NCBI RefSeq assembly: GCF_026151205.1
Contig: NC_087082.1
Location: 15,843,365-15,907,364, forward strand
DNA length: 64,000 nt
Direction of reading: 5' to 3'
Origin: Bolinopsis microptera
Lineage: Eukaryota > Ctenophora > Tentaculata > Lobata > Bolinopsidae
Below the pieces are notes generated by a model. The model was given only the letters and a program-made list of their open reading frames with translations, ran no database searches and had not been told where the DNA came from. Position numbers and translations under genes: made by a program. The first letter of the stretch is position 1. Every line of letters begins with the position of its first letter. Shown piece after piece: positions 34,839-39,275 of this stretch.

Positions 34839-35813
34839 TCCTGATCCAGAAGATCAGAGTTTGCTAGGGTCTCCAGATGACTAATTCAAATTGGTGTCTC
34901 CAGATGGCAAGGTATCAGGTTCAACTCACTTTGTTCGGCGGAATTTCATGGACCGTGTACCACCTTTCTTACAACTGTATTGATCACACACAAAAAAATT
35001 TATTCCATGGCAACCGTCGCGTGTGATCTTATTGTCATTGATCACATTTACAGAATTTGTGGACCTTTACTGATAGTTGAAATTCGACATATGACGTCAT
35101 CTAGCGTCTTCTAGCGTCATCTAGCGTGAAATATCGCCAGATGATGATAGATGACGCTAGATGACGCTAGATGACGCTAGATGACGCCAATTAGCGACAT
35201 TGTCGCTAAGTGCACGGCACCTTTCGAATGTCGCTATCTAGCGCTATCTAGCGCTATCTAGCGCTATCTAGCGCTATCTAGCGCTATATGACGCTATATG
35301 ACGCTAGATGACGCTAGATGACGCTAGATGACGCTAGATGACGCTAAGCACGCAGCACTGACGCCAGGCGACAGATAGCGCTATTTTCATAAAAATTCTA
35401 GGGACGACATCTAGCGTCATCTAGCGTCATATGTTGCCGCGACATCTGACGCTATCTGACGCCATCTAGCGATATCTGACGTCATCTGACGACATCTGTC
35501 GCGACGACATCTGACGCAGGCGACATCAAGCGCTGGATAGCGGGATAAGTCAGTTTACGACAGTTCACGCTATCTAGCGCTATATAGCGCCAGATAGCGC
35601 TATATAGCGTCAGATGTCGTTGCGACATATAGCGCTAGATAGCGTTAGATAGCGCTAAATAGCGTTAGATAGCGCTAAATAGCGAAGAATTTTGGGTCGT
35701 GACAGTCCAGGCTATTTAGCGCTAGATGTCGCTATCTAGCGCTATATGTTGCTGCGTCAGATGTCGTCGCTACATATAGCACAAGATATCATATCCTATC
35801 ACATCCTAACTCT

Positions 35814-36101
35814 CTGTGTGTGTGTGTGTGTGTGTGTGTGTGTGTGTGTGTGTGTGTGTGTGTGTGTGTGTGTGTGTGTGTGTGTGTGTGTGTGTGTGTG
35901 TGTGTGTGTGTGTGTGTGTGTGTGTGTGTGTGTGTGTGTGTGTGTGTGTGTGTGTGTGTGTGTGTGTGTGTGTGTGTGTGTGTGTGTGTGTGTGTGTGTG
36001 TGTGTGTGTGTGTGTGTGTGTGTGTGTGTGTGTGTGTGTGTGTGTGTGTGTGTGTGTGTGTGTGTGTGTGTGTGTGTGTGTGTGTGTGTGTGTGTGTGTG
36101 T
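35814..36101. repeat. (TG)n microsatellite, about 287 bp
   Basis: An uninterrupted TG dinucleotide run of about 143 units. The long Cys-Val and His-Thr frames over it are artefacts. It directly precedes a partial family C copy (TTTTACTGGGACCG...). Confidence 0.98.
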
Positions 36102-36329
36102 TTTACTGGGACCGTAAGCGCAGCCTGTCTTTTCCCACCCAATCTTTTTTGTTATTTTTATTTTATATGAAAATTAATTTTTACTGTGTATGAAAATTAA
36201 TTATAATTTAAGTGAGAATGCAAATGATATAACTATAAGCTTGCGCGGCTCGTCGAAGTCACCCAACTATTACACTCGATTTATCAAATATTCGGCTGAG
36301 TGGAACAAAATATTAAATATCACCTAATC

Positions 36330-36616
36330 AAGGGGTCGTTTACATATTATAATTATATAAAGGGCCTGATGCCGCCGGCCGGGGTTTTCCAAATTATTAC
36401 GCTCGCTAGTGTGATTGTGACATAATACTAATAGCTTAATAGCTATGTATGGAACTGATTACTAACAATGAGGGGTCTTTTACATACCCCGTAATCAGTT
36501 TTACCATAGCTATTATATTTATGTCAATATTACACTAGCGTAATCAATAATCATTTGAAAACCCCAACCTCCTCAGCTGATTACGTAATACTAATATGTA
36601 AACGACCGTCGACCCT
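36330..36616. mobile_element. MITE with inverted ends
   Basis: Outer ends AAGGGGTCGTTTACATATTA and TAATATGTAAACGACCGTCG are complementary. A second inner inverted pair (CTAGTGTGATTGTGACATAA, against TTATGTCAATATTACACTAG) surrounds the centre, with a GATTACGGGGTATG/CAGTTTTACC region. No ORF. Nested inside the foldback element. Confidence 0.7.
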
Positions 36617-36679
36617 TAACATTTCGGGATCGGAAGAAAGCGGCACGTACTATTTCGACGAAATTTATACAAGTTACTA

Positions 36680-37320
36680 ACATCGTTGATTCATGATGCC
36701 AATCTTTCACAGCTCAGTGGTGCATTTTGCCAAAAAGCATTATTGGATACCGAGTTAAGCATTTTTGGATGCGCGGCGCGACACACTCACAGTAACGCAT
36801 CGCGTTGATTCATGATGTCAATCCTTCACTGTTCATGTTCACAGCTCGGCGAGGCCCAGTCATGGTGCATATCGCCAATTTAGTAACATAGTTGGTCAGT
36901 TCGTACAAAAGTCAGGCACGTTTTTTCAGTTCGGGATTAGTTTGGGAAAAATTCGCCTCATAAATTTTCGAAATATATAATAAAAAGCTAATTGCAAAAA
37001 TGTGTGTTAAAATGGCGGGAAACGATGACGTGCGGATGCATGTTAATATTTTAAATCTGAAATGTAACCTCCCGGACAAAAATAACAAATTTTTCGGACT
37101 GAAGTGATTACTGATTAAAAAACAAATTTTTTAAAAAAAATTCGGTAAAAATTCATCGACAGCTTTTTAAAATTTGTACAGTTCGACACCTTTTAAAAGT
37201 TCGTACATACAGTAACGTACTGACCAAGTATGTTTAGTAAAGCACTAGTGGTTGCAAGAAGCATTATATTATTGGCTGCGCGGCGCGGCCCAGTAGTGCA
37301 TCGCCCTACAACAAACATCG
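36680..37320. repeat. Dispersed repeat family B copies
   Basis: Modules GATGCCAATCTTTCACAGCT, GATGCGCGGCGCGACAC and CAGTAACGCATCGCG (36680-36860), and AGAAGCATTATATTATTGGC with GCGCGGCCCAGTAGTGCATC (37240-37320). Between them lies unremarkable AT-rich DNA. Confidence 0.65.
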
Positions 37321-37387
37321 TCAAATAGATTACTCGAAGCTCAAAGCTGTAAAGTATTTATCCAAAATAATTTCGATCCCGAGGATT

Positions 37388-37990
37388 GTTACTGGGCCGC
37401 GCTCAGCCTGTCATTCCGCCAAATCTTTATTCGCCAAATCTTAATGTTTATGAACACGTACATACAACATAATAGCTTGGGTTCCCAGGTAAGAGGATTG
37501 ACATAACTTATAAATTTATAATATATTAATTCTAAATACTGAATGCATCGCATTTTAAGGGTTTTGGTATTTTCGTAGCTAAATTGCACTAAAGCTTTCG
37601 CGCTTGCACTTCACACTTGCGCGTAGTTCGTAAACTGAAAACTCGTGCAGGTACGATATATGTGATTACTGAACAATAAATTCGGCTCGACTCTCATTAC
37701 ATTCTTTTAATAACTTGCTGTGCGAGATTTCAATACTATCAATTTGCAAATGCTAATTTAACATTTAGATCTACTAGCGAGAGGGCTATGGTTAGAGCAT
37801 AAACAGGTTTTACTGGGCCGCGCTCAGCCTGTCATTCCGCCAAATCTTTATTCGGTTTCTGAGGCCCCAATTGGTTCTAAATGATCACGTGAATGCTGGT
37901 CACGCGCACATCAACTTCCAATGAGCGTACTGCCATTTTTTCTGAGGCGATGGAGGTATGTTAATGAACATAATAGCCTGGGGTCCTCAG
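37388..37990. repeat. Two dispersed repeat family C copies
   Basis: TACTGGGCCGCGCTCAGCCT and GTCATTCCGCCAAATCTTTA at 37388 and again at 37808. The matching ends are GAACATAATAGCCTGGGG-like at 37475 (variant) and 37965. The second copy carries about 100 bp of extra sequence in the middle. Confidence 0.7.
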
Positions 37991-38106
37991 GTAAAAACAG
38001 GTTATACTGGACGAATCTCACTCGTTAACGGGTGATACTCGTAATTTACTATCACGCGCCGCTTTTTCTCAAAATATTAGTCTAAGCCTATACCAGCCGG
38101 CAAAGT

Positions 38107-38580
38107 TTTTATATGTAACCTACATACAACGTTAAAATTTAGTTGAGTTTTGAACGTTGCTTATAGTTGATAAGGTAACCTTGATCTAACGTAAAATAAT
38201 AAACGTTTTGCAACGTTAAAAATAAAACCTATAACCAACGTTAGATATTTAACGTTTAACAACGTTTTATATGTAACCTACATACAACTTTAAAATGTAG
38301 TTGAATTTTAAACCCTGCTTATAGTTAATAAGGTAACCTTGATCTGACGTCAAATAATAAACGTTTTGCAACGTTAAAAATAAAACCTATAACCAACGTT
38401 AGATATTTAACGTTTAACAACGTTTTATATGTAACCTACATACAACTTTAAAATGTAGTTGAATTTTAAACTCTGCTTATAGTTAATAAGGTAACCTTGA
38501 TCTGACGTCAAATAATAAACGTTTTGCAACGTTAAAAATAAAACTTATAACCAACGTTAGATATTTAACGTTTAACAACT
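38107..38580. repeat. 158-bp tandem repeat, three copies
   Basis: The phrase ATGTAACCTACATACAAC starts at 38113, 38271 and 38429, an exact 158 bp period. Each unit is rich in the palindrome AACGTT (AACGTTTTGCAACGTTAAAA, CCAACGTTAGATATTTAACG). It directly abuts the right-arm AGCGCTATCT array. Confidence 0.95.
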
Positions 38581-39275
38581 ATAGCCATAGCTATAGCTGT
38601 CGCCGCGATATCTAGCGCTAGATAGCGCTATCTAGCGCTATCTAGCGTTAACTGTCACAAACTGATATTCTCCGCTAGATAGCGCTATCTAGCGCTAACA
38701 AGCGTTATCTAGCGGAGAATGTCGGTTTGTGACAGTTTACGCTAGATAGCGCTATCTAGCGCTAGCTGTCGCCGCGATATCTAGCGCTAGATAGCGCTAT
38801 CTAGCGCTATCTAGCGTAAACTGTCACAAACCGACATTCTCCGCTAGATAGCGCCAGATAGCGCTAGATAGCGCTAGATAGCGCTGCGTCAGATGTCGTT
38901 GCGACATATAGCGTTAGATAGCGCTAGATACCGCTAGATGTCGCAAAAAAAAGGGCGGAAATTTTATGAAAATAGCGCTATCTGTCGACTGGCGTCAGTG
39001 CTGCGTGCTTAGCGTCATCTAGCGTCATCTAGCGTCATCTAGCGTCATATAGCGTCATATAGCGTCATATAGCGCTAGATAGCGCTAGATAGCGCTAGAT
39101 AGCGACATTCGAAAGGTGCCGTGCACTTAGCGACAATGTCGCTAATTGGCGTCATCTAGCGTCATCTAGCGTCATCTAGCGTCATCTATCATCATCTGGC
39201 GATATTTCACGCTAGATGACGCTAGATGACGCTAGATGACGTCATATGTCGAATTTCAACTATCAGTAAAGGTCC

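Follow-up and report, generated by a model that had tools for sequence, protein, structure and literature searches.

A young Foldback-type family with decamer-repeat arms in the ctenophore Bolinopsis microptera, probably mobilised by a transposase encoded elsewhere

The 64,000-nucleotide stretch of Bolinopsis microptera contig NC_087082.1 analysed here (the window) contains at 35061–39275 a complete member of an interspersed family, designated family A. Its defined ends, 8-bp target-site duplications, tip number, size classes and arm variation were observed directly, and no paired copy contained a match to Merlin or MULE transposase models. Since a recognised transposase was absent from the copies, we read family A as a non-autonomous Foldback-type cut-and-paste DNA transposon with transposase supplied from elsewhere (probability about 0.9). 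It is young, parasitic mobile DNA. A literature search yielded no paper on family A, although one may exist; the family is new but of a known kind, and novelty is greater in the repeat-armed Merlin elements that share its genome.

The copy in the window

The inverted termini proposed in the preliminary description were confirmed: GGACCTTTACTGATAGTTG begins at 35061 and its reverse complement stops at 39275. Matches of this copy to other A copies start at 35061 or at most 13 bases earlier. The features identified were as follows.

35053–35060, no strand: left flank octamer GAATTTGT, an imperfect counterpart of the right octamer (the same at 6 of 8 bases)
35061–35760, plus strand: left inverted arm; tip 35061–35100, then 10-bp unit arrays and two unique islands (by alignment to the right arm)
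35210–35234, plus strand: unique island 1 (GTGCACGGCACCTTTCGAATGTCGC), read directly; same position in many other arms
35346–35367, plus strand: unique island 2 (AAGCACGCAGCACTGACGCCAG), read directly
35815–36101, plus strand: (TG)n microsatellite, a 287-bp run bordering the left arm on its inner side
36102–38106, no strand: interior without long open frames or transposase trace, partly a core common to the 22 long copies compared
38107–38579, plus strand: 158-bp minisatellite, 3 units
38597–39275, minus strand: right inverted arm, end GGTCC (by alignment to the left arm)
39276–39283, no strand: right flank octamer GAATGTTT
39347–39481, no strand: miniature second copy, left tip minus its first 5 bp (like 35066–35166) joined to a right tip
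39482–39552, no strand: duplicate of the 71-bp right flank, first instance at 39276–39346

Reverse-complemented, the right arm (39275–38597) aligned to the left arm over 727 columns with 77% agreement (E = 3e-165). The arms had been described as sharing at least 330 bp, which holds for the near-identical outermost ~337 bp (to ~35397), including both islands and interrupted by two 10-bp indels; their real extent is ~700 bp. The first 20 bases of island 2 were present, with at most 2 mismatches, in 60 of 80 arms. Both islands and the construction of the arms from 9–10 bp near-palindromic units had been correctly noted: the base match at lag 10 was 71%, against a shuffled 99th percentile of 33%, and 8-bp palindromes numbered 6 per 286 bp (shuffles, mean 1.2, maximum 5). 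Self-folding was evident in the inner arm block 35228–35346 (z = -4.9) and did not exceed expectation at the arm tip, 35061–35130 (z = 0.04). The interior, previously regarded as nested repeats, does contain repeats, but also the core shared with other long copies.

To the right of the window copy (39276–39552), a miniature second copy and a duplicated 71-bp flank had been overlooked. The miniature carries the variant CTAGCGTCTT, shared with the left tip of the window copy and absent from the other arms displayed.

Copies, duplications and arm variation in the genome

A search of the 264.65-Mb host genome with the 36-base terminus identified 80 tips on the plus and 82 on the minus strand (reversed-pattern control, 0 and 0), revealing a dispersed family with fixed ends. 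Among 40 copies selected by a limit of 4 substitutions over 24 bp, the 80 tips differed by 5 substitutions over 44 x 80 positions, and all of them ended in GG. Perfect 8-bp target-site duplications were found in 33 of these 40 copies, none extending to 9 bp; the flanks were otherwise unrelated between copies and the target octamers had no common sequence. Random re-pairing of the flanks gave 2.1% duplications, approximately the yield of self-pairs alone. The seven copies without a perfect duplication include that in the window, so that GAATTTGT and GAATGTTT, earlier put forward as a duplication, belong to a family that duplicates 8 bp but themselves match at 6 of 8 positions only. No empty insertion site was seen in the loci examined.

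These data bear on two other explanations. Arms that are repeat arrays adjoining a minisatellite and a 287-bp TG run could suggest two independent satellites opposed by chance, or an assembly artefact; chance opposition was rejected, and the probability of either is negligible, because 162 dispersed tips share the ends and unrelated flanks are duplicated at 8 bp in 33 of 40 copies. It is also very improbable that the repeats chiefly serve the host, for instance as regulatory or boundary sequence, in a domesticated relic. The arms do contain TGACGTCA-like and palindromic sites, whose function is guesswork, but the low divergence among copies, the variable arm length and interior and the lack of a common target sequence argue against such a role. 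Divergence of the interior from the nearest copy was 0.4–2.0% (22 long copies, mismatches only), and the short copies of 206–1267 bp appear to be deletion derivatives.

Differences in arm length were whole decamers (10-bp steps) in 53 of 60 measurable arms. Arms within one copy were more alike than arms of different copies, identical pairs occurring in 4 of 25 copies compared with 0.8% of other-copy pairs, a result equalled in 0 of 20000 permutations; a cruder test using a single arm segment in 24 copies gave P = 0.049. Arms would lengthen or shorten by entire decamers through slippage or unequal exchange, and exchange between both arms of a copy would keep them similar, while shared descent may account for part of the likeness. 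The expansion proposed in the preliminary description is thus seen as whole-unit length change, with slippage or hairpin formation as its putative cause. Together, decamer steps and within-copy likeness offer a means of measuring, in ~80 copies (162 tips), how inverted repeats evolve in concert.

Transposase search and superfamily

No transposase open reading frame was detected inside the window copy in ORF lists or by tblastn. Profile searches of the genome gave 58 Merlin matches (PF12762, from 63 candidates), with several open frames of 318–337 aa, and 88 MULE matches (PF10551, from 131 candidates); none was inside the 53 paired A copies or in the 15 kb on the inner side of 37 unpaired A tips. 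A tblastn search of the A and X loci and the window with six Merlin proteins and one MULE protein produced no match at E<=1, four Merlin loci scoring in a control set that held no MULE. For the 143 tips listed, the closest MULE match lay 1.05 kb outside one unpaired tip (expected ~0.11 times by chance). These checks cover the 143 listed of at least 170 tips, and a transposase in an unlisted copy is therefore possible; among the 143, neither an autonomous cognate nor a longer transposase-encoding relative, for which a search had been suggested earlier, was found. The view of a non-autonomous family without internal transposase was upheld for the window copy and the 53 pairs with both models. 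A transposase encoded elsewhere would bind the near-invariant ~40-bp GG tip, probably also recognising the phased 10-bp units behind it, cut both ends and integrate the element through target cuts staggered by 8 bp.

The hAT, P and KDZ superfamilies may also be considered; 8-bp duplications with CA-type ends are typical of hAT and P, and the ends of A are GG. We favour Merlin, at roughly even odds, with the transposase coming from a PF12762 family of this genome or a lost sister, because GG tips and 8-bp duplication are shared by six transposase-bearing Merlin copies with inverted short-repeat arms. Among the loci read (34 of 58 Merlin, 1 of 88 MULE), these six (L055, L057, L059, L069, L085 and L086) had identical 8-mers outside GG tips, matches within palindromic arms having been set aside; the frame of L057, at least, is interrupted by a stop, so not all six are autonomous. 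In four Merlin families (M1–M4), arrays with lags of 15, 14, 11 and 11 bp lie directly inside the tip, and M1, like A, has an excess of 8-bp palindromes. Merlin elements are defined by terminal GG and 8- or 9-bp duplications in the part of PMC8101967 consulted, and in A terminal GG was found in 80 of 80 tips and the duplication in 33 of 40 copies. Against this assignment, PF12762 matches were absent from the 53 A pairs and, by eye, from the X and Y pairs listed, the units of M3 and M4 are non-palindromic and those of M2 marginal, and in one Merlin copy (L084) both GG tips were read but the flanks mismatched. Similarity of the A tip to the four Merlin tips was not significant (P 0.20–0.80); the M1 and M3 tips are as dissimilar from each other as the A tip is from Merlin tips.

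A second candidate, which we hold to be plausible but the less probable, is a Mutator-like Foldback (MULE, Phantom/Muta-type) mobilised by a transposase of MULE type, as are Drosophila FB and mosquito Muta1. The genome contains the 88 MULE matches, and in the single MULE locus read (L088, 501 aa) the inverted arms contain 15-bp repeats. These arms are similar to those of A, so architecture alone does not decide the superfamily. L088 probably has GGG tips flanked by two copies of GCATCAGA, a choice made visually, on the ground that each of the tips is then separated from the inverted arms by 12 bp; since the 9-mer CATGAGCAG also matches in its flanks, its 8-bp duplication is uncertain. Mutator/Phantom elements have 8–11-bp duplications, long TIRs and frequent subterminal repeats, features that A fits, and Muta1 combines subterminal repeats of 12 bp with duplications of 8 or 9 bp and a large number of non-autonomous derivatives (excerpts of PMC6446971 and PMC5225508 for the former, of PMC5225508 for Muta1). 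However, Muta1 mixes duplications of 8 and 9 bp while those of A are exactly 8 bp in 33 of 33, no MULE match lies inside the 53 A pairs, and the L088 arm lacks the 8-bp palindromes present in A, X and M1. Drosophila FB/NOF has 9-bp duplications, in contrast to A, and NOF, a transposase related to those of MULEs, is present in part of its copies; with the MULE model PF10551 as query, no match was detected in the 53 pairs. With long inverted short-repeat arms of variable length and dispersed copies bearing target-site duplications, A has the Foldback-type architecture attributed to it; the likeness to Drosophila Foldback stands as one of structural type, and descent from the Foldback/NOF lineage is not established.

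Nested ends and comparison with known systems

In a rarer family, X, the ends of A are nested ~675 bp inside the arms: an A tip lay 663–678 bp inward of 9 of 13 X tips, with none for the other four among the A tips listed. Simple insertion of A into X was rejected. It would leave a direct 8-mer, but the X arms flank A in inverted orientation (CATGATTC before A, GAATCATG after it), which requires a self-complementary 8-mer, and CATGATTC is not one. The nested ends resemble a transposon with a second usable end pair. Family Y, 67–69% like the X arms and with five paired elements of 5.3–6.7 kb, may carry a transposase.

Mutator is the group with which Foldback arms are commonly associated. Tentatively, and with somewhat less than even confidence, we suggest that the architecture arises repeatedly in transposase lineages with GG tips and 8-bp cuts and is not confined to Mutator (and Galileo/P), repeat arms being present here in four or more Merlin families, and that A may be a Merlin Foldback derived from the larger X by a switch to inner ends, yielding a smaller, more successful parasite. 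With Merlins that carry a transposase and one or more similarly armed MULEs in a single genome, the reasons why arms of short units recur could be tested by direct comparison; candidate reasons are extra transposase sites or self-pairing.

The Merlins M1–M4 resemble A in their GG tips, in the 8-bp duplications of six copies and in the 11–15-bp unit arrays inside the tip, but encode PF12762 proteins and differ in tip and unit sequences. Other resemblances are drawn from excerpts of published descriptions. Muta1 and the other Muta families (MULE, Aedes aegypti; 'type-2 Foldback') likewise have long TIRs made of a short terminal motif and 9–15-bp subterminal repeats, 8-bp duplications among others, and derivatives with varying repeat number and unrelated interiors; unlike A, they have a known MULE transposase and duplications of 8 or 9 bp. 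Tm1 (Mutator/Foldback, Meloidogyne), which has MITE-like and other classes, resembles A in its composite, variable-length arms but has 9-bp duplications and known transposase-bearing copies. Tetris/DAIBAM (Drosophila virilis) is also a non-autonomous Foldback element, with ends shared with a shorter family and no autonomous copy found in the account compared, but has ~220-bp rather than 10-bp units and 8–10-bp duplications. Galileo (P superfamily, Drosophila) has Foldback-like arms with changing repeat number and recruited extra sequence, and chimeric copies without matching duplications; it differs in its 7-bp duplications, P-superfamily transposase and, in one subfamily, arm repeats of ~210 bp. 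A nested second end pair like that of X and A is absent from the Muta descriptions compared, whereas plant MULEs with multiple TIRs do have more than one end pair per element; according to the excerpts, these are duplicated TIRs, mostly in tandem, while X and A have two different tips.

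Ends, arms and flanks of the window copy

The inverted termini proposed for this copy in the preliminary description were confirmed: the left tip starts at position 35061, and the same sequence in reverse complement ends at 39275. Also confirmed were the inverted arms, which align over 727 columns (77%, E = 3e-165). The outermost ~337 bp of the arms are nearly identical, except for two 10-bp indels. The arm has a 10-bp period (lag-10 base match 71%, against 33% at the 99th percentile of shuffles) and six 8-bp palindromes (shuffled mean 1.2, maximum 5). Array orientation switches along a single arm, from ATCTAGCGCT to ATGACGCTAG arrays, so that parts of one arm self-fold; self-folding was detected at 35228-35346 (z -4.9), 35130-35260 (z -3.9) and 38580-38720 (z -6.6), and none at the tip, 35061-35130 (z 0.04).

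The 71-bp right flank is present twice (39276-39346 and 39482-39552), with a miniature element (39347-39481) between the two copies. The miniature starts like 35066-35166 of the window copy, variant CTAGCGTCTT included, and its end is a right tip. This arrangement would be explained if the element had been duplicated in tandem together with its flank and the repeat-rich arms had then recombined with loss of the DNA between them. A comparable arrangement appears in L042, a fetched locus with two elements 5 bp apart and matching 8-mers outside, and in the tip positions at C8:4870016/4870022. Some 260 bp to the left of the window copy lies a 19-bp minisatellite of ~18 units (34468-34803).

Family A and its relatives in the genome

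The search for further A ends that had been proposed was carried out on 264.65 Mb with a 36-bp tip, allowing ≤3 mismatches, and gave 80 matches on the + strand and 82 on the - strand; the reversed tip had no match in the same sequence. A 34-mer with one preceding base added matched 85 times on each strand (control 0/0). The 143 tips listed, out of at least 170 existing, included 53 paired elements and 37 unpaired tips, whose partners may have diverged or be among the unlisted tips.

Size classes of the 53 paired family A elements
206-1267 bp: 17 pairs
3.2-5.5 kb: 32 pairs
over 8 kb: 4 pairs

Two of the over-8-kb copies were read whole, and both contain insertions: L022 has a LINE, and L027+L028 (C5:15011524-15025331) has an element of 9.5 kb. 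The latter insertion has the edges CCCTGCAG and GCAGGGG, with a satellite array in which a 16-bp unit occurs 123 times.

The target-site duplication suspected from the flanking octamers holds for the family, identical 8-mers flanking 33 of the 40 elements read with flanks (39 fetched and the window copy), but it is imperfect in the window copy itself. None of the 33 extends to 9-bp identity; their octamers are AT-rich (32% GC), with no evident common motif.

Copies with imperfect flanking octamers
Window copy: GAATTTGT/GAATGTTT, two mismatches
L012: one mismatch
L019: three mismatches
L035: four mismatches
L044: six mismatches
L010, L013: six mismatches each; the flanks are X arms

In Galileo, copies whose flanks do not match are known to be chimeras, and by analogy we would guess the same of such A copies.

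The interiors of the long copies are of two main kinds, each found in either orientation, with a common core (22 copies), and nearest copies diverge by 0.4-2.0% (mismatches only). No open stretch >200 aa was found in the fetched loci of the 39 elements beyond TG-repeat frames, inserted LINEs (L013, L022) and the low-complexity frames of 232-252 aa in the X arms of L013. Six Merlin transposases and one from a Mutator-like element (MULE) had no match at E ≤ 1 when compared with the A/X loci. Family A is a genuine, little-diverged Foldback-type family of known structural kind, apparently non-autonomous; literature searches found no earlier description of it.

Two loci, L010 and L013, have an additional set of inverted arms on either side of the A element; these arms start with GGCAAGTTTCCATAAA and define family X. 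An 8-bp duplication, CTAGATCC, was read by eye outside the L013 composite; the L010 composite has one truncated arm. The X tip occurs 13 times in the genome (control 0/0), and nine of the 13 have an A tip, among those listed, 663-678 bp inward. X is a composite that has two pairs of ends and moved as a single unit; A may have arisen from X by switching to the inner pair, or the outer arms may have been acquired by X. Sampled over 3 kb, the interior of one X element (L087) had no open stretch >96 aa, and 178 bp of this sample are 97% like L013, 84-87% like window-type A copies and 90-92% like others. A third family, Y, has arms 67-69% like those of X and forms five pairs 5.3-6.7 kb apart; positions compared by eye placed no Merlin or MULE match inside them. 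Beyond family A, these nested X/A ends and the repeat arms of several Merlin families are of interest in themselves.

Arm variation and proposed mechanism

Arm length was measurable, from the tip and the second island (a non-repetitive stretch, 35346-35367 in the window copy), in 60 of 80 A arms, and in 53 of these it was 265, 275 ... 335, that is, differing by whole decamers. Among 25 copies with both arms measurable, the median edit distance was 14 between own left and right arms and 21 between arms of different copies; left and right arms were identical in 4/25 copies, against 0.8% of other-copy pairs. None of 20000 permutations gave as good a within-copy likeness, to which kinship among copies can add; a cruder test, which used the length of a single arm segment in 24 copies, gave P = 0.049. 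Mirrored variants support exchange between the two arms of one copy: ATCTAGCGCC is in both arms of L009, L019, L023 and L024, and L010 and L013 each carry CTAGTGTCAT left and right. One-arm variants are also present (L022 right arm, window copy left arm).

The A tip is nearly invariant, with only 5 substitutions over 44 x 80 positions, and a transposase made elsewhere most likely binds it. By analogy with Galileo, in which the arm repeats contain secondary binding sites, the transposase probably also binds the units phased at 10 bp, which would share roughly one helix face. Excision and insertion at an 8-bp staggered cut would follow. When the self-complementary arms are replicated or repaired, decamers would be added or removed and variants copied from arm to arm, as the arm data suggest, and deletion between arms would yield the 206-1267-bp class.

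Merlin or MULE, and other features of the window

With evidence on both sides, the Merlin superfamily is favoured for family A, at a probability of about 0.5, and a MULE origin is possible but less probable. Merlin elements have TIRs of 24-462 bp, GG ends and 8/9-bp duplications (PMC8101967), which the GG tips and 8-bp duplications of A fit; the exact-8 uniformity of these duplications and the palindromic units also lean to Merlin. The genome has 58 matches to PF12762, the Merlin transposase domain, and the analysis covered 34 of these loci by reading. Of the copies read, six (L055, L057, L059, L069, L085, L086) have GG tips with identical 8-mers outside and longest frames of 266-295 aa; not all are autonomous, since at least L057 has a stop in its reading frame. 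In L084, a seventh copy in which both tips are readable, the flanks differ. Arrays lie behind Merlin tips at lags of 15 (M1), 14 (M2), 11 (M3) and 11 bp (M4), M2 barely exceeding shuffles, and in M1, M2 and M4 they lie in inverted arms. The tips of A and of Merlin elements lack significant similarity, which counts neither for nor against. PMC8101967 reports internal tandem repeats; foldback, palindrom and hairpin are absent from its main text, and a literature search combining Merlin with foldback found no paper on the combination.

MULE origin draws on L088, the one locus read among 88 MULE matches, which is a MULE (501 aa) whose inverted arms consist of 15-bp units and whose tips are probably GGG inside GCATCAGA, although beside the 8-bp reading its flanks also share the 9-mer CATGAGCAG. 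Muta1, a MULE, is described as a type-2 Foldback element with 12-bp units and 8/9-bp duplications.

Short-unit (11-15 bp) repeats were seen just inside the tips of at least four Merlin families (L053-L086), one 11-bp array in L084 reaching 76 copies. At L083:1301-2743 a 481-aa Merlin-type frame continues into an extended proline/glutamine-rich stretch of APQPP repeats. Just outside L088, an M2-like tip precedes 3.4 copies of a 14-bp unit resembling that of Merlin M2.

Elsewhere in the window, an inverted repeat at 42291-45159 has arms of ~1.1 kb, 96% alike and 0.6 kb apart, and a search for a 7-11-bp target-site duplication around it found none; 54370-57492 is a tandem duplication of ~1.4 kb (98% identical). 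Two gene copies, 755-1864 (with a BTB match) and 24193-25332, are 83% alike; 11728-12105 has a weak Ig-like match below the cut-off. The ~118-base run at 60051-60168, almost all C, is possibly an assembly or sequencing artefact.
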